Shown piece by piece: positions 484 through 33,176 of a stretch of DNA of 44,901 nucleotides (within the stretch, counting starts at the first letter, position 1; every line of letters starts with the position of its first letter). The stretch covers positions 1 through 44,901 of the IMG/VR virus record IMGVR_UViG_3300022745_000056; one strand, 5' to 3'. The position numbers and the translations under genes are program-made. The notes below the pieces were generated by a model. The model searched no databases, had not been told where the DNA came from, and saw only the letters and a program-made list of their open reading frames with translations. Source of the stretch: a virus.

Positions 484-663
484 TCCTGCCGTGAGGCGCT
501 ATCAGTTCACCGCCTCGTGACAGGCGCCTCTCACCGCAAACACTCTAACAGCACCAGCAGCCGACTGTGAAGTCCGCCAGCTGTGCTGCTAGAGCCTCTT
601 TGTGGTGAGGGGTTTTCTTTTTTATGCCGTCATGTAGAACATGAATCTAAAAATCTATACTCA

Positions 664-671
664 CATATTAC
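664..671 (+). promoter_or_regulatory. CATATTAC early-promoter-like motif
   Basis: CATATTAC lies 131 bases upstream of the membrane-protein start. The same octamer occurs at 34146 and 41741, both upstream of RNAP-related genes. It resembles the TATATTAC element reported for phiKZ early promoters. It sits in a local hairpin, so a structural role is an alternative. Confidence 0.35.
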
Positions 672-742
672 CATGGTGAGTCTACTGCAACAATTACTTC
701 ATCACTACACCCTGAAGTAACCTGCAGCTCGACAACGCTACT

Positions 743-777
743 CACAACTCAACCAAAACAGTTGTGGGTGGTTTTTT
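743..777 (+). terminator. Hairpin plus T-tract before the membrane-protein gene
   Basis: CACAAC (743-748) pairs with GTTGTG (761-766) and is followed by GGTGG and a T6 run at 772-777. The ribosome site of the next gene (AAGGAG at 789-794) follows immediately. It may therefore act as an attenuator for that gene as well as a terminator for upstream transcription. Confidence 0.55.
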
Positions 778-801
778 AGTTACTATTTAAGGAGAGCTAA
801 C

Positions 802-1518
802 ATGCTCGAATGGATCAAGACAAAGGCCGTACAGGCCTACGACGCGGCGGCTTCGGCCGTCGCGTTCGTTGCACAGGGCCTCAAGGCCCTGTGCGACCGC
901 GTCGTTGAAGCGGTCAAGAATGTCATCAGTGGCGCCGGCAGCGTCGCTGATTGGGCCATCACCGGCATCGCCGGCGGCCTGATTGGCGGGCTGCTCTACG
1001 CAGCCGCTGTGGCGATCGCGGCCATGACAGTGGCGGCGTTGGTGGTCAGCGCACTGACCACCGGCTCGGCCTATCTGGACCTGCTGGTCCTGATGGCCGC
1101 CGGTGCTGGCGTGCTGGGGGCAGGCTACGTCTTCATGTTCACCGGTATCAAGACCGGTGATTGGGGCGTCGCCTTCAAGGCAATGACGGCATACGTGCTG
1201 AATGCCCCGCGCATTCTGCTCGAGTGGTTGACCACTGCTGCTGGCGTCTTGGTCACGGCGCTCTGCGTCACCATCATGGTGGTGACGGGCGCGCCGCTGG
1301 TTGAGGTCATCGGTGTTCCGTTGGTCGCAGCATTCCTTGGGCTGCAAATCGACATGTGTGTGAATTACACATGTCTGCTAAATGCAGTTAGCATAGAACT
1401 CGCGGCCGCGCCTCAACGCGGCATTAACGGCGAGATGTGCGCAGCCGGCAACCGTGCCGGCCAGGACAGCTACACTGACGTGACCCCGCTGAACGCAGCG
1501 GCCATGGCCGCCGCCTGA
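802..1518 (+). CDS. Small multi-pass membrane protein, unrecognised
   Basis: This 238-residue protein has an amphipathic N-terminal segment (MLEWIKTKAVQAYDAAAS) and about four Gly/Ala/Val-rich hydrophobic stretches: roughly 50-85, 92-114, 140-162 and 163-185. The C-terminal 50 residues are polar. It should sit in a membrane, most simply the host inner membrane. No holin, spanin or transporter signature is recognised; four helices in a phage protein of this size would allow a holin-like or envelope role, but that is a guess. The start follows a strong AAGGAG site at 789-794 with good spacing. The coding sequence is unusual: it contains many perfect inverted repeats, for example 871-880 with 885-894, 1041-1049 with 1054-1062, and 1351-1359 with 1367-1375. 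G/C-ending codons dominate. Confidence 0.7.
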   Translation: MLEWIKTKAVQAYDAAASAVAFVAQGLKALCDRVVEAVKNVISGAGSVADWAITGIAGGLIGGLLYAAAVAIAAMTVAALVVSALTTGSAYLDLLVLMAAGAGVLGAGYVFMFTGIKTGDWGVAFKAMTAYVLNAPRILLEWLTTAAGVLVTALCVTIMVVTGAPLVEVIGVPLVAAFLGLQIDMCVNYTCLLNAVSIELAAAPQRGINGEMCAAGNRAGQDSYTDVTPLNAAAMAAA

Positions 1519-1543
1519 TGTAAAGTCAGGCCCGCCGCCATCA

Positions 1544-1576
1544 ATTGGCAACAGTGAGTTCGCAACTGTTGCCAAT
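1544..1576 (+). promoter_or_regulatory. 12-bp perfect stem-loop in an intergenic leader
   Basis: ATTGGCAACAGT (1544-1555) pairs perfectly with ACTGTTGCCAAT (1565-1576) around a 9-base loop. No T-tract follows, so it is not a classical terminator. It lies between the membrane-protein gene and the AGGAGG ribosome site at 1596-1601, where it could be an RNA processing or stability element. Confidence 0.6.
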
Positions 1577-1605
1577 CCTTCAAAGCGAACGAAACAGGAG
1601 GCCCC

Positions 1606-2061
1606 ATGGCCAAGAAAGTCCATGAACTGTTCGAGCGGGTGAAGGCCGCGCTCGAACCCCACGCCGTCATCGCAGACGGCGTAGTCGTGGTCGGCGATGC
1701 CGACCGCTACTACCAGACCGGCGCAGAAGTCGCCGGTCTGGAACGCCCCGTCCTGGACGGGGTCCACCGATACGACGCTGCGTACGACGCGGCAGTCGTA
1801 TCGGTCTCGGGCCAGCTTGCGCTGGCCCAATTGCAGGAACAGCCGGAGATGGAAGAAATTCCCTTCTCCGGCGAGGCCGGTGACCGCCAGGTCACCGGCC
1901 TGGTGCAGCGGGTTCGGGAGTTCCCGAACCCCAAAGGCGGTGACCCGATAGTGAAGCACGGTCACACGACCGTGTCAATCATCGGGAACAAGTCGCCAGC
2001 CATGGTCGATGCTCGCAAGAGCATCGCCGACCTGGCCAAGCAGATGTTCGGCGAGAGCTGA
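1606..2061 (+). CDS. Unrecognised 151-residue protein encoded by tandem hairpins
   Basis: The product starts MAKKVHELFERVKAALEPH, a likely helix, and continues as a mixed sequence with no recognised domain, signal peptide or membrane segment. The ATG follows a strong AGGAGG site. The DNA is remarkable: almost the whole frame consists of consecutive perfect stem-loops, with arms of 7-12 bp and one near-17-bp stem at 1767-1804. The last stem (2038-2049 with 2060-2071) spans the stop codon. The reading frame and ribosome site argue that it is translated, but the RNA structure may be the main selected trait, and a dual coding/structural RNA cannot be excluded. The opposite strand is also open for long stretches, as expected of such symmetric DNA. 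Confidence 0.55.
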   Translation: MAKKVHELFERVKAALEPHAVIADGVVVVGDADRYYQTGAEVAGLERPVLDGVHRYDAAYDAAVVSVSGQLALAQLQEQPEMEEIPFSGEAGDRQVTGLVQRVREFPNPKGGDPIVKHGHTTVSIIGNKSPAMVDARKSIADLAKQMFGES

Positions 2062-2138
2062 ACATCTGCTTACTCCAAACAGGCTGCCGGGAGGCGCCTT
2101 GAGTCATGCCCGCTGGGATAGCGCGCTCTAGTTACAGG

Positions 2139-2212: not shown

Positions 2213-3085
2213 TTAGGTCGCAGCCAGGGCGTCAGCGCCCAGGTTGTTGATGTTGTCGATCACGCCGCCCAGACCGAAGTTGGACGCCACGTCCGGCGAC
2301 ATCTCTTCTTGGAAGGCGCGGCGCAGCAGCGGGTTGGCGTTGGTCTTGTTCATCAGGTCGAAGTACTTCTGCGCGAGCAGCAGCACGCCGTAGCCCGACT
2401 GCGTCACCGCGGAGAAATTCAGCGAGATCTCCAGCGTGTCGCGCGAGGCCGTGGGGTCCTTGCGGCCTTCGATCGGACCCGTGGTGTCCGGCATGACGTT
2501 GGCGCACAGCCACGCCTTGGCCACGCGCTTGAACGTCGGATCCGGCTCGAACGCCAGGATGACCATGGAGGCCATGTCGTTGAGGTAGTCGCCCAGGCTC
2601 ACGCCGTCGATGGCGTTGATCATCGGATAGCCCGTGTCCGGGTCACCGATGAGGTAGGTGATGTAGTCCTGCAAGAGGTTCTGGAAGGGGCGACCCGCCA
2701 GATCCACCAGCGTCAGCGTGGGCGTGGTGCGCTCACGCGTGACGTTGACCACGTCTTGGAACTGCTCGCCCGCACGCCCCACGGGCGTCTCGGTGAATTC
2801 CACCTTGAGGTCCGACTTGAAGCCGTCCCAGTTGCGGGCATGGGTTTCCACCATGGCGCGCAGGCCCGAGACATAGTAGTCGGAGTCCGGCAGGTACTGC
2901 AGGCCACGCGGCACATCGAACAGCATGACGATGAGGTTGGGGCGCGTGTAGTGGGTCATGCTGGCCCACTGCGACAGGTCGGGCGCCACGCCATACGAGC
3001 CGCCATACTGCGGATCGGACATGGCGCTGCCACGGCCAAAGCTCTGGGCTTGGCCTGTCAAGATCGCATCTGCGACACGAGTCAT
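2213..3085 (-). CDS. Tail tube protein, phiKZ gp30-like
   Basis: This 290-residue protein lies just downstream of the tail sheath gene on the same strand, the arrangement of sheath (gp29) and tube (gp30) in phiKZ-related myoviruses. Tube subunits stack as hexameric rings inside the contractile sheath and conduct DNA during injection. Features seen: an early motif TRPNLIVMLFDVPRG (about 45-60), a central stretch with conserved-looking LVDLAGRPF (about 130), and a Gly/Asn/Leu-rich C-terminus. The ATG at 3085 follows AAGGA with normal spacing; an upstream in-frame start would add 34 residues without a ribosome site. Codon use is GC-rich, as expected of an abundant structural protein. The tube call rests mainly on position and size. 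Confidence 0.7.
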   Translation of the reverse strand: MTRVADAILTGQAQSFGRGSAMSDPQYGGSYGVAPDLSQWASMTHYTRPNLIVMLFDVPRGLQYLPDSDYYVSGLRAMVETHARNWDGFKSDLKVEFTETPVGRAGEQFQDVVNVTRERTTPTLTLVDLAGRPFQNLLQDYITYLIGDPDTGYPMINAIDGVSLGDYLNDMASMVILAFEPDPTFKRVAKAWLCANVMPDTTGPIEGRKDPTASRDTLEISLNFSAVTQSGYGVLLLAQKYFDLMNKTNANPLLRRAFQEEMSPDVASNFGLGGVIDNINNLGADALAAT

Positions 3086-3254
3086 GATGCATTCCTTTCG
3101 AGAGAGATGAGTAGAGGATAGGTGGCTGATGAGTGCGCTGACAGCGCTCCACCCAACCCTGCTAGAGTGATTCAACGCCAGACTCAAGACTGCAAGAACT
3201 GCTCTGGAGTCAAATCACGCCGTGAGTGTTAGGTCAGAGCTGCTGGCCTGATTG

Positions 3255-5399
3255 TCAGGCCGTCATGCGCATGGCCTTGACGTCGAGCGTCATGACCGTC
3301 TTCATGTTGTTGGCTTCCAGCGTGATGGGCAGCGTCCACTTGTAGCCCAGCAGCGCATCGCCTTCGGAGATGTAGGCCGCCGGCGTGATCTTGAACAGAT
3401 CAGCAAAACGCCCTTGCGTCTTGGCGAGCACCGACTGGTTGACGCGGTCGCACAGCACGGCTTCGGTGTAGCGCACCGCGCCCGTGAACTCGCGCCACAC
3501 GCGTTGGCCGACCTTCTGCAGCTCGACCGCACCCATCACGACGAACAGGCTGTTGAGCACGCTCGTGTCGTTGTCGTAGACCGACTTGATGGCCGGGAAG
3601 AAGACTTGCGTCTCGCTGAAGGACTGCGCCCAGTTCATGCCCAGCGCCCAGTTCTTGGCACGGGTGGCCACCGGCACGGACGTGTTGTTCACTTCGGTGA
3701 ACAGATCCACGATGTTGTTGGGCGCGATGTCGAAGAGCCGGTCGCGCTTCCAGATGCCGTTGGCCGCGCCCATCATGCTGGCGCACCACTTGGCGATCTG
3801 CAGCGTCAGCGGCAGGCGCTGCGTCCAGCTCGAGCCCACCAGTCGGCCCGACTGGCCGACAATGAAGGCGCGCATGGTGGCCGTGCCGTAGTAGTCCGAC
3901 TCGGGGTAGAGCTGCGCATAGGTGCGCAGCAGCGTGGCGACCGAACGTTCTTGCTCCGTCGTCATGGCCGGCTCACCGGCCACGTGCACGCCGCCCACCA
4001 CGACGGTGTCCTTGCGCAGCGCCATGAACTGGAACAGGTCGCGCTTGGACGCCAGCGGGAAGCCCGTGTCGTAGAAGATCGACACCGGGTACAGCGCATC
4101 GTCTTGGTAGCGATGCAGCGGGTCTGCCCAGTGGGCGATGTCGGCTGTGACGGCGTCAGCAAACGCCTGGTCGCTCATCGTGCCGTTGGCGCCGCCGCCG
4201 GCGTACAGGTTGGTGGTCTCGCTCAGGCGGATGGCACCGGCACCGGCCGTGTCAAACTGCAGGCTGTAGTACGGCTCGTTGCCCGAGTTCACACCCGTGA
4301 GGATGTTGATCAGGAACTTCTGAGTCGCATCACCCGTGACGAAGTCCTTGGTCACCGGCAGGCCATTGCCCGCCGTGGTGGCCGCGTCGATGTAGGCCGA
4401 CTCGCTCGTGTAGAACTGCGTGAGCAGCTGAGCGATCACCGCGTCATAGACGTAGACCTGCTCGAAGTCGCCGTAGTTGATGGGGCCTTGCGACTTGTCG
4501 GTGTTGCGGTACTTCTTGCTGAAGCGCTCGCCCAGATAGTAGGGGATGTTGTAGGTGGTGTACATCGCGCCCGGCTTGAGGGCAAAGTCGATGAACTTGT
4601 CACCGTCGAGCGAGTCGACGATCACCGGTGTGCTCTTGGCATTGGCACGGCGGATCACTTGCAGGCGCATCGGGTAGGCGCCCGTGTCAGCCATGGCTTT
4701 GGCGTCCAGCGGCGAAGCGCCAGCCGAGATCGGAGCAGACAGACGGATGCCCGAGTTGTTGCCGGCTTCGCCGTAGCTGGAGGCGACCCACTGCAGGATC
4801 GGGTAGCGCTGCGATTGCACCGCCACGCCACCGACGGTGGAGGTCTGGTCACCGGCTTTGGCGGTGAGGGTGCCGAACTTGGTCTCGTCAGCCAGGGCGC
4901 TGATGCGTTCGACCACGACCTTGATCTTGTAGCCAGCAAAAGCTGTCACGGCTTGCGCGTCAGCGACTTGCGGTGCGCCCGTGCCATCGAGCATGATGGC
5001 GCCCGTCAGGACGTTGCGCTTGTACTGGGGCATCTCGGCCACCGGCAGCACGTCCAGGTAGAGTGCGAAGTTGGCGCGCGGGCCCACGTCGGCCGGCACG
5101 ATGCGGGCGAGCATGTGCGCGTTGGCTTCAGCAGCCAGGATGTTGCTCAGGGACGTGGCGTGGTTGAAGTACACGCCGCGCGGATCGAACGAGTCGATAC
5201 CAAACAGGTTGGTGCGGTCAGCGTCGGAGACGCGCTGTGCCACCACCTCGCCCGGCTTGCCGGGGCCCTTGGCGGCGTAGATGTAGACCCAGGGCATGTG
5301 GGTCGGTTGCGGATCAGCCACCGCCAGCGGCGTGGTGGTAGAGCCGTCCTGAACGCCTCGGGAGTCCAGTTGCGGGGCGGCATTGACGAATGTGTTCAT
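3255..5399 (-). CDS. Contractile tail sheath protein, phiKZ gp29-like
   Basis: The 714-residue size and layout fit the large sheath proteins of phiKZ-type phages. The N-terminal region contains MPWVYIYAAKGPGKPGEVV (about 35-55) and FGIDSFDPRGVYFNHAT (about 65-85), and the C-terminal part has WKRDRLFDIAPNNIVDLF and a long helix-rich end, the usual site of the conserved sheath domain that contacts the tube. Sheath subunits form the outer helical cylinder that contracts to drive the tube through the host envelope. The ATG at 5399 has GAGG upstream; a start at 5453 would add 18 residues but has no ribosome site. A strong antisense frame over the whole gene is a composition artefact. The tail tube gene follows 169 bases downstream. 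Confidence 0.85.
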   Translation of the reverse strand: MNTFVNAAPQLDSRGVQDGSTTTPLAVADPQPTHMPWVYIYAAKGPGKPGEVVAQRVSDADRTNLFGIDSFDPRGVYFNHATSLSNILAAEANAHMLARIVPADVGPRANFALYLDVLPVAEMPQYKRNVLTGAIMLDGTGAPQVADAQAVTAFAGYKIKVVVERISALADETKFGTLTAKAGDQTSTVGGVAVQSQRYPILQWVASSYGEAGNNSGIRLSAPISAGASPLDAKAMADTGAYPMRLQVIRRANAKSTPVIVDSLDGDKFIDFALKPGAMYTTYNIPYYLGERFSKKYRNTDKSQGPINYGDFEQVYVYDAVIAQLLTQFYTSESAYIDAATTAGNGLPVTKDFVTGDATQKFLINILTGVNSGNEPYYSLQFDTAGAGAIRLSETTNLYAGGGANGTMSDQAFADAVTADIAHWADPLHRYQDDALYPVSIFYDTGFPLASKRDLFQFMALRKDTVVVGGVHVAGEPAMTTEQERSVATLLRTYAQLYPESDYYGTATMRAFIVGQSGRLVGSSWTQRLPLTLQIAKWCASMMGAANGIWKRDRLFDIAPNNIVDLFTEVNNTSVPVATRAKNWALGMNWAQSFSETQVFFPAIKSVYDNDTSVLNSLFVVMGAVELQKVGQRVWREFTGAVRYTEAVLCDRVNQSVLAKTQGRFADLFKITPAAYISEGDALLGYKWTLPITLEANNMKTVMTLDVKAMRMTA

Positions 5400-5823
5400 G
5401 TTGGCCTCGATGTTAAAGAAAGAGGAATCCTCGTGAATAGAAACAGGAAACATGGTGCCATCAGTGCAGCGGCTGCCTTACTGATGGCCACTAGGCGACC
5501 TAATGATAAATCATGCCTTGATACCTGACATAAAAACAGATCATCCCATACAGCACTGACAGCATACTCCTGCCAATGCTGCTGGGACTCTAGGCAAGCT
5601 GTTTTGACGTCCAGTATCACAGTCAGCGTTACCACCCAGGGTAGGCACTCACGCACCATACGACTGTCACGTCTCCCCCTAGACTATTGTGAATTGAGGG
5701 AGTGCTGCATTTTAAGCATACGATGATCTGAGGGGACTATTGAGTCCCTTGTGCAGTGCAGAGGTTTTTGCAGTCCACACGAACGTCATCATTTCTTCAT
5801 TTAGCCTTTGGAGCTTTTTCACC
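5400..5823. other. 424-base divergent intergenic region
   Basis: This region separates the leftward sheath gene from the rightward virion-protein block and must hold promoters for both. It contains GCCATCAGT/ACTGATGGC (5457-5465 with 5480-5488) enclosing a GCAG/CTGC hairpin, in the leader of the sheath mRNA, and GGGACT/AGTCCC (about 5733-5748) in the leader of the rightward gene. Read leftward, TTTATCATTAG near 5500 and TTTTTATGTC near 5535 resemble the TTATC and TATG motifs seen elsewhere. No gene is apparent. Confidence 0.5.
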
Positions 5824-13931: not shown

Positions 13932-14036
13932 CGGCATAAAGCCATCACAACATACGGCATAAAGGCCCCATACCTCGCTAGGAGCGCTCCAAACGGAGTC
14001 TGCTCTAGCGAGGTATGGGAGGTGCGTTTTACGCCG
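13932..14036 (-). terminator. 15-bp terminator followed by two TTTATGCCG copies, upstream of terL
   Basis: CCCATACCTCGCTAG (13967-13981) pairs perfectly with CTAGCGAGGTATGGG (14005-14019) around a 23-base loop that itself holds a GGAGC/GCTCC repeat. Read on the minus strand, the hairpin follows the stop of the 133-residue gene and is succeeded by TTTATGCCG twice (complements at 13955-13963 and 13932-13940), the second copy 35 bases before the terL start. The opposite arm has the variant TTTTACGCCG. This site could end one transcript and start the terL transcript. Confidence 0.7.
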
Positions 14037-32325: not shown

Positions 32326-33176
32326 ACAAGTTCCTGAGTGAGCGCACCGTCAGCAGCTACGCCGTGTCCATTGGTACGGCCATGGCGCTGGAGACCTTTG
32401 GCATGGGGCAGCGACCGGCGTATGATCCTGAACGCCAAGTGCAGCACATGCCTCTGTCCAAGTACCAGGAATTCTGGATCAACTTGGTCACGCTCTTTCG
32501 CAACATGGTGAGCTCTGTCAAGTCAGAGCACCGCGATCAGTTGAAGCCTGAAGACCTGGCAGATTGCTTGGCTGAAGAACTCGACGTGATCGATGCCGCC
32601 ATTGCAGCCCTCTCAGGCGGCGCCACACGGGTGGTCTACTACACGTGTGGCTACACGGCCATGAAGAATGCGTTTCAGCATGCTGAGCTCAGAGTGGACC
32701 GCACCGAGAATCAGCGCCAGTACACTGAACTGGCCACCAAGACCATCAACGCGTTTTACAAGAAGTACAAGCACTTGCGAGTGCATCGGCACTTCAGCAC
32801 CATGATCAGCCCCAACGCCAAGACGAAAGCCGTGATGCTGTCGCACTACGCGGTGGATCTGCTCAGCTGGAAGATGTTTGCCAATCTGGAACTCCTGGAG
32901 AGTCATACGGGGCGCATCAAGCCCCGTACGGAATGGTACACCAAGTACGTCAATGGAAAAGAACGATGTGTACGAATACCATGGGACCGGCGCATGCTGC
33001 AAGTCTTTGGTGATCAACATACCTTCTCTCCTCTCAAGAAGGCAGTGATTGACGCTGTCTTGGCTGTGGCCGAAGAACATCAGTGGACGCAAGCGACGAC
33101 GGATGACCGCATCCGTCTGGGTATTGGCTCCATGAAGGACAAGTACGCCGCGGCCATTCTGGCCAGCATGAAGTAA
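32322..33176 (+). CDS. Unrecognised protein coupled to the SbcD-like nuclease
   Basis: This 284-residue protein starts in the stop of the nuclease gene (ATGA), so the two are translated together. It is mainly helical, with basic patches (AFYKKYKHLRVHRHF, about 145-159; NGKERCVRIPWDRRM). No Rad50/SbcC ATPase motif is present, so it is not the usual SbcD partner. The basic surface and coupling suggest a DNA-associated role, which remains inference. Confidence 0.5.
   Translation: MNKFLSERTVSSYAVSIGTAMALETFGMGQRPAYDPERQVQHMPLSKYQEFWINLVTLFRNMVSSVKSEHRDQLKPEDLADCLAEELDVIDAAIAALSGGATRVVYYTCGYTAMKNAFQHAELRVDRTENQRQYTELATKTINAFYKKYKHLRVHRHFSTMISPNAKTKAVMLSHYAVDLLSWKMFANLELLESHTGRIKPRTEWYTKYVNGKERCVRIPWDRRMLQVFGDQHTFSPLKKAVIDAVLAVAEEHQWTQATTDDRIRLGIGSMKDKYAAAILASMK

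Follow-up and report, generated by a model that had tools for sequence, protein, structure and literature searches.

Accessory genes of jumbo phages with coding sequences written as chains of hairpins: possible RNA armour

Can a protein-coding gene also be, almost base for base, a chain of RNA stems, and what would favour such a construction? The question was raised by a 44.9 kb IMG/VR fragment (44,901 nt; "the window" below means this whole stretch), in which an initial annotation had described two neighbouring genes built almost entirely of perfect hairpins. A phiKZ-type tail sheath, tail tube and gp28-type vertex protein are encoded there in conserved order, which identifies the window as part of a phiKZ-like jumbo phage (chimallivirus). 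As in the Chimalliviridae, tail and terminase genes follow the phiKZ order (tail tube, gp29-type sheath, gp28-type vertex protein, gp27-like protein, virion protein, terminase); the phage is nevertheless a distant one, with a best tail-sheath identity of 43% to any cultured phage, and searches found no close relatives of the window. ORF158, ORF238 and ORF151 run convergent to the tail genes, and the features of this region are as follows.

7–483: ORF158, ordinary folding (z about −0.9)
662–671, plus strand: AT-rich motif CACATATTAC, read from the sequence as a candidate phage promoter upstream of ORF238
694–720, plus strand: leader hairpin with 8-bp perfect arms
740–779, plus strand: leader hairpin (10-bp arms) with a T run behind it, resembling a terminator or attenuator, before the ORF238 start
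802–1518, plus strand: ORF238, gene of an orphan membrane-like protein with a hairpin-rich coding sequence (hairpin count and codon-shuffle z)
1544–1576, plus strand: 12-bp perfect hairpin between ORF238 and ORF151
1596–1601, plus strand: AGGAGG ribosome-binding site of ORF151 (from the sequence)
1606–2061, plus strand: ORF151, coding sequence an almost unbroken hairpin chain (hairpin count, folding z and family match)
2038–2071, plus strand: final hairpin of the chain, across the ORF151 stop codon
2151–2186, no strand assigned: 14-bp perfect hairpin with downstream T run, terminator serving both the hairpin operon and the tail genes convergent to it
2213–3121, minus strand: tail tube gene
3255–5453, minus strand: tail sheath gene

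With a perfect hairpin defined as arms ≥7 bp around a loop of 3–20 nt, 24 were found across 694–2186 (13 in ORF151, six in ORF238, the remainder in leader, gap and terminator), and the rest of the window held 0–5 per 500 bp. The initial annotation had counted roughly thirty from position 485; the dense perfect hairpins were confirmed, but the count was too high and the start too early. Since 485–693 contained no perfect hairpin by this definition, the start of the chain was placed near 694, from where it extends past the ORF151 stop codon up to the terminator hairpin. In ORF151, the 13 hairpins (arms 7–12 bp) compare with a mean of 2.00 and a maximum of 7 in 1000 shuffles that kept protein and codons, and folding was equally far from expectation (z −11 to −13.5 against such shuffles; −0.595 kcal/nt, 72% of bases paired). 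The suggestion that this mRNA forms a chain of stems was thus upheld, its structure exceeding what codon-preserving shuffles allow. ORF238 also lay beyond its shuffles (six hairpins versus a mean of 1.68; z about −5 to −8.3), so that both genes share the construction, as had been proposed, albeit ORF238 is clearly the weaker. Dinucleotide shuffles gave z of −8.3 to −9.1 over 1651–2100 (window mean −1.2), and the other genes of the window, rightly set apart in the initial annotation, lay close to the baseline of this phage (median z −2.5). GNRA loops, singled out there, do occur (GCAA, GCCA) and are not the rule.

Rfam covariance models gave only matches below the gathering score in the window, and no leader family could be defined within it. 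Homology searches found no relatives of ORF238, protein searches with ORF151 and ORF238 returned no close relatives, and neither protein matched known profiles of anti-phage defence or counter-defence families. As separate observations, a long open frame lies antisense to the hairpin genes (1378–1965, minus strand), and further windows of low folding energy at 13951, 24301, 27751, 34051 and 38851 are probably intergenic terminators.

ORF151 belongs by profile match to the family phrog_16459 (PhiPA3 gp222, whose annotation notes similarity to phiKZ gp186), which lies beside the tail tube gene on the opposite strand in about 60 relatives. These homologues keep the protein without the hairpins: codon-shuffle z was near 0, with mild structure only in L027 (−6), L078 (−3.7) and L019 (−3), and no conserved pairings were found among the ~60. 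A conserved dual-purpose coding and structural RNA, as entertained in the initial annotation, is therefore not supported, a protein kept while its pairings are lost being the very outcome that the annotation had named as refuting. Nor is there support for a scaffold that binds protein or for a packaged RNA whose architecture is fixed, pairings being lost in homologues and hairpins moving elsewhere. Since the homologous mRNAs are ordinary, the protein does not depend on the hairpins, nor do these represent an ancestral RNA. An AlphaFold model of ORF151 (pLDDT 90) matched uncharacterised jumbo-phage proteins; its best PDB match was HU (Anabaena, 1p71; E 0.014, prob 1.0), weak and below significance, from which fold the family may comprise divergent HU/IHF-like nucleic-acid-binding proteins of chimalliviruses.

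Unrelated genes in related jumbo phages show the same construction. A hairpin-density scan of related contigs yielded G004 (IMGVR 3300021440_000015), where unrelated small hairpin-filled genes are dispersed, each raised in GC (genome GC 0.40). In a folding scan of SD+ATG genes on 12 contigs, with a hairpin-gene cut-off of dE below −0.10 kcal/nt, 22 of 435 genes in six hairpin-bearing contigs fell below the cut-off versus 2 of 791 in the six others, a grouping made post hoc. All hairpin-rich contigs are metagenomic, thresholds and groupings were picked during inspection, and the comparisons are mostly post hoc. An assembly artefact is unlikely because the hairpin genes of G016, a different RNA-polymerase-encoding jumbo phage of 230 kb, were found again in independent contigs.

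Among the few identifiable hairpin genes are type III anti-CRISPR genes. Four matched PF08960: two in G004 (E 4e-8 and 7e-7; 33.8 and 29.8 bits versus a gathering cut-off of 26), one orthologue in G006 and one in G016; on this profile evidence they are predicted AcrIII-1 ring nucleases, a viral anti-type III CRISPR enzyme. Another, at 98075 in G005, matched PADLOC Unk_01 (E 4.5e-14), a Crn4 profile, and weakly the structure of Crn4b; its product has an NxxPH motif with the catalytic His and is a putative Crn4b-like ring nuclease. The Crn4 paper equates Unk01 with Crn4 and proposes an anti-CRISPR role. Several other hairpin genes in related contigs are of no recognised family. The AcrIII-1 paralogues and orthologues are all hairpin-rich, with hairpins in differing positions, and their dE in the jumbo phages (−0.108 to −0.146 kcal/nt) compares with −0.007 to −0.082 for 19 AcrIII-1 genes of other viral contigs and −0.062 for one from a bacterial MAG. 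Among Crn4-like genes, dE was +0.02 in a Pararheinheimera phage, +0.02 in a Paenibacillus phage and −0.08 in a Microcystis phage. As ring-nuclease relatives elsewhere lack the effect, the trait follows the phage and not the protein family.

FLC9 and PhiPA3 had few hairpin genes or none; the latter, a cultured nucleus-forming phage, has one milder case in the small hairpin-rich gene gp109 (HQ630627, 104992–105321; dE −0.114, z −8). Some further observations concern the related contigs. In G004 (L019), about 2 kb of accessory genes at ~83000–85400, including a 97-aa hairpin gene, sit between conserved neighbours, and this block is missing from the close relative G006 (L027). Long open antisense frames lie opposite G004 hairpin genes (4361–4774, 83154–83450). 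Gene ends in L016, L019, L022, L061 and L078 carry perfect 14–17-bp hairpins, with loops mostly of 4 nt and often without a T run, resembling a terminator or processing signal of phage type.

Hairpin genes are also linked to leaders and promoters. In G016, exactly four genes share a full leader of ~130 nt, and they are the four richest in hairpins among about 170. Hairpin genes made up 4/4 of genes behind the full leader versus 5/166 of the others; several hairpin genes of this phage lack it. The leader consists of promoter-like TATAATTATAGTRAATAAGG followed by hairpins, one of which has the loop CTAGTCA on a varying stem. In the G004–G006 clade, a leader with the sequence CATATATTCTATTTGAGCTATCGCTGT... 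lies upstream of many hairpin genes and holds a two-stem RNA with strong covariation (98.4% of cells paired, 27 compensated cells, 0/500 shuffles); 5 of 15 promoter-linked genes were hairpin genes versus 6 of 196 others (p = 3e-4). Other genes behind this leader are unstructured, including a repeat family: G005 encodes tandem "HREDGPA..NGxKxWxxNGxxHR" repeat proteins behind it at 32916, 46164, 68411, 73196, 97185 and 113104, with coding sequences that are not hairpin-rich. In L231 and L226 (G006, contig 3300046313_000168), the leader is followed by the 4-codon ATGGCTGGAGCGTGA and then a terminator hairpin, an arrangement resembling a leader-gene-terminator cassette that has lost its gene. ORF238 of the window has one candidate promoter motif (CACATATTAC) in front of it. 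An early-gene role for leader-linked hairpin genes is plausible because, in jumbo phages encoding RNA polymerase, early promoters are AT-rich and some 10 nt long (PMC7598289).

A mutational origin, also raised in the initial annotation, would have replication- or transcription-associated template switching perfect quasi-palindromes in fast-evolving accessory genes, leaving hairpins without function. Template switching is known to make inverted repeats perfect and can be coupled to transcription (PMC3820800), and perfect coding palindromes are known from nematomorph mtDNA (PMC6649704). Several signatures fit such a process. The arms are near-perfect, symmetric and Watson-Crick, with few G-U pairs. 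The antisense strand is almost as structured as the sense strand (a slight sense bias is present in controls too and does not discriminate), and G-T and A-C interruptions of stems are equal (4:4), without G-T excess; the RNA-strand signature is therefore weak. Hairpins turn over, and third-position divergence in stems is only slightly below that in loops. The genome-wide median folding excess was about −0.034 kcal/nt in the window, G004, G006 and G016 versus about −0.018 in most control jumbo phages, a difference that a phage-wide mutational bias would likewise give. Between hairpin-gene orthologues, specific pairs were kept no better over the whole gene than protein-level expectation; by eye, two 3′ hairpins of G004:115300 and G005:48977 keep perfect pairing through double changes, and covariation is not claimed for coding sequences because the pairs of these two genes, taken whole, followed the same expectation. 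Selection for the amount of structure, not for individual pairs, would also predict turnover. The enrichment of arm codon-phase class 1-3/2-2, found in ORF151 and modestly overall (71/133 versus 43% in shuffles), does not separate selection from mutation, and no convincing depletion of UpA or ACA motifs was seen in hairpin genes.

What weakens template switching is where the hairpins lie. Intergenic DNA, the least constrained, is not enriched: density was 17–19 per kb in hairpin genes of the window, G004 and G005 and 12 per kb in those of G016, versus 4.6–8.6 per kb in terminator-free intergenic DNA of the same phages. Relative to chance, intergenic hairpins stood at 1.7–2.2 in hairpin-gene phages and 2.0–2.3 in control phages, while hairpin genes were 4.6 to 10.7 times above chance (window, G004, G005 and G016; two long genes dilute this ratio in the G006 set). 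Pooled, they held 133 perfect hairpins versus 25 expected, with tetraloops the commonest loop and uninterrupted helices of 7–13 bp, none above 16. Start codons are spared, the paired fraction being 0.44–0.47 in the open start region and 0.6–0.7 in the body. GC is raised in stems only (0.60 paired and 0.37 unpaired in hairpin genes of a 0.40 GC phage; 0.46 and 0.34 in ordinary genes); a foreign GC-rich origin was rejected because unpaired positions retain near host-phage GC. Hairpin genes cluster by leader and promoter, and they do not include the genes for tail sheath and tail tube, which are abundantly expressed. Template switching would need gene specificity together with sparing of intergenic DNA and start codons, and we consider it unlikely, although a serious contender in view of the near-equal strands; we favour selection over mutation roughly threefold.

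If selection acted, its object could still be something other than defence. The main functional rival is selection for stable messages or for controlled translation, for reasons other than immunity, with long-lived early messages of an injected RNA polymerase or slowed ribosomes. It would draw on the same structural facts, on a start codon left open before a closed body, on early-promoter-like AT-rich motifs upstream and on the structured leaders. It would leave unexplained why two unrelated families of type III ring nucleases occur among so few identifiable hairpin genes, and why genes behind the same leader are unstructured, and we hold it somewhat less probable than the mutational account. 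That the hairpins form a specific structural RNA, scaffold or autoregulatory site, with the HU/IHF-resembling ORF151 binding its own mRNA, is suggested by the HU match, which is however below significance; the mRNAs of ORF151 homologues are ordinary, hairpin genes elsewhere encode unrelated proteins, and hairpin positions are not conserved, making this very improbable. Least credible of all is a large structured non-coding RNA with fortuitous reading frames: stem density over about 1.4 kb might suggest one, but no Rfam family reached threshold, the AcrIII-1 genes are genuinely coding, and ORF151, which has an SD and a confident fold, belongs to a protein family that is conserved and keeps its genomic position, so that homology refutes the idea there.

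We regard it as evenly balanced whether these genes form an accessory class in jumbo phages whose coding sequences have been moulded into hairpin chains by selection for double-strandedness, with armour as the most likely benefit. Synonymous and tolerated amino-acid changes would do the moulding, and the transcript would pair with itself locally, one short hairpin following another from right behind the start codon up to the terminator. With its structured leader included, the whole transcript would be such a chain. The selected trait would be general double-strandedness with no fixed structure, such that any protein could be encoded and hairpins could turn over. The nuclei of jumbo phages exclude DNA-targeting defences, but transcripts are still exposed to type III CRISPR and Cas13 (PMC13282480), and in nucleus-forming as well as other RNA-polymerase-encoding jumbo phages they can be reached by these systems, by collateral ssRNases and by other ssRNases. 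Short perfect stems would mask crRNA-complementary and ssRNase-cleavable sites, stems of 7–13 bp would probably be too short for efficient cleavage by RNase III, and the open start codon would keep access for ribosomes. Cas13d was shown to be defeated solely by hairpins of exceptional stability and complete pairing, ordinary structure being insufficient (PMC11364014), and the phage hairpins resemble the former.

Ring-nuclease messages in particular would need translation during active RNA-guided targeting or in the presence of collateral ssRNases. The fuller statement, to which we give somewhat less than an even chance, is that in more than one lineage of jumbo phages the transcripts of accessory genes, ring nucleases included, act as sequence-independent RNA armour, a messenger-borne counter-defence that can still be translated. 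Against the armour reading, not all genes behind the leader are hairpin genes. The nuclease-resistant RNA of the initial annotation comes near to this preferred reading, in which selection on the RNA, and protection as its benefit, are what we infer. By analogy with the ring-nuclease genes, ORF238 and ORF151 may have anti-defence or early roles.

The closest working likeness is the genome-scale ordered RNA structure (GORS) of some persistent RNA viruses, to which the phage hairpin genes do not belong, being gene-specific and in dsDNA phages. The pairings of GORS are not known to be conserved. By our own comparison, RNase L, a second-messenger-activated ssRNase on the GORS side, would be a functional analogue of type III effectors. 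GORS likewise shows pervasive coding-region structure beyond codon-preserving expectation and has been linked to interaction with innate defences (PMC3950689). In the window, coding-RNA energy fell below codon-preserving shuffles in two genes, and not genome-wide in an ssRNA virus; whole RNA genomes are structured in GORS, whereas short perfect local hairpins here occupy selected mRNAs of dsDNA phages, tied to leader and promoter classes. Nematomorph mitochondrial palindromes are the nearest case of perfect inverted repeats inside genes that function, and they too come and go from one species to another, but they are few and long (mean 43 bp, up to 142 bp) and are read as products of conversion or template switching (PMC6649704), unlike the many 7–13-bp tetraloop hairpins that fill selected phage genes. 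AcrIII-1 and Crn4b ring nucleases are the proteins of several relatives' hairpin genes, although most of their relatives examined lack a hairpin-filled coding sequence and the ORFs of the window are not members; excerpts of the papers that describe them (PMC12409355, PMC12830947) do so by protein and do not mention hairpin-filled coding sequences.

A search confined to open-licence papers found no description of hairpin-filled phage coding regions, so earlier work may exist. If it proved mutational instead, it would reveal an unusually strong, gene-specific process of template switching. If the armour reading is true, it would provide a natural case of the structure optimisation along a whole coding sequence that is sought in mRNA design. 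"Hairpin-ness" would then mark anti-defence genes among the many uncharacterised small genes of jumbo phages. RNA-targeting CRISPR is a known weak point of nucleus-forming phages, and theirs would be a folding-based counter-defence, invisible to protein homology searches and visible to a folding scan.
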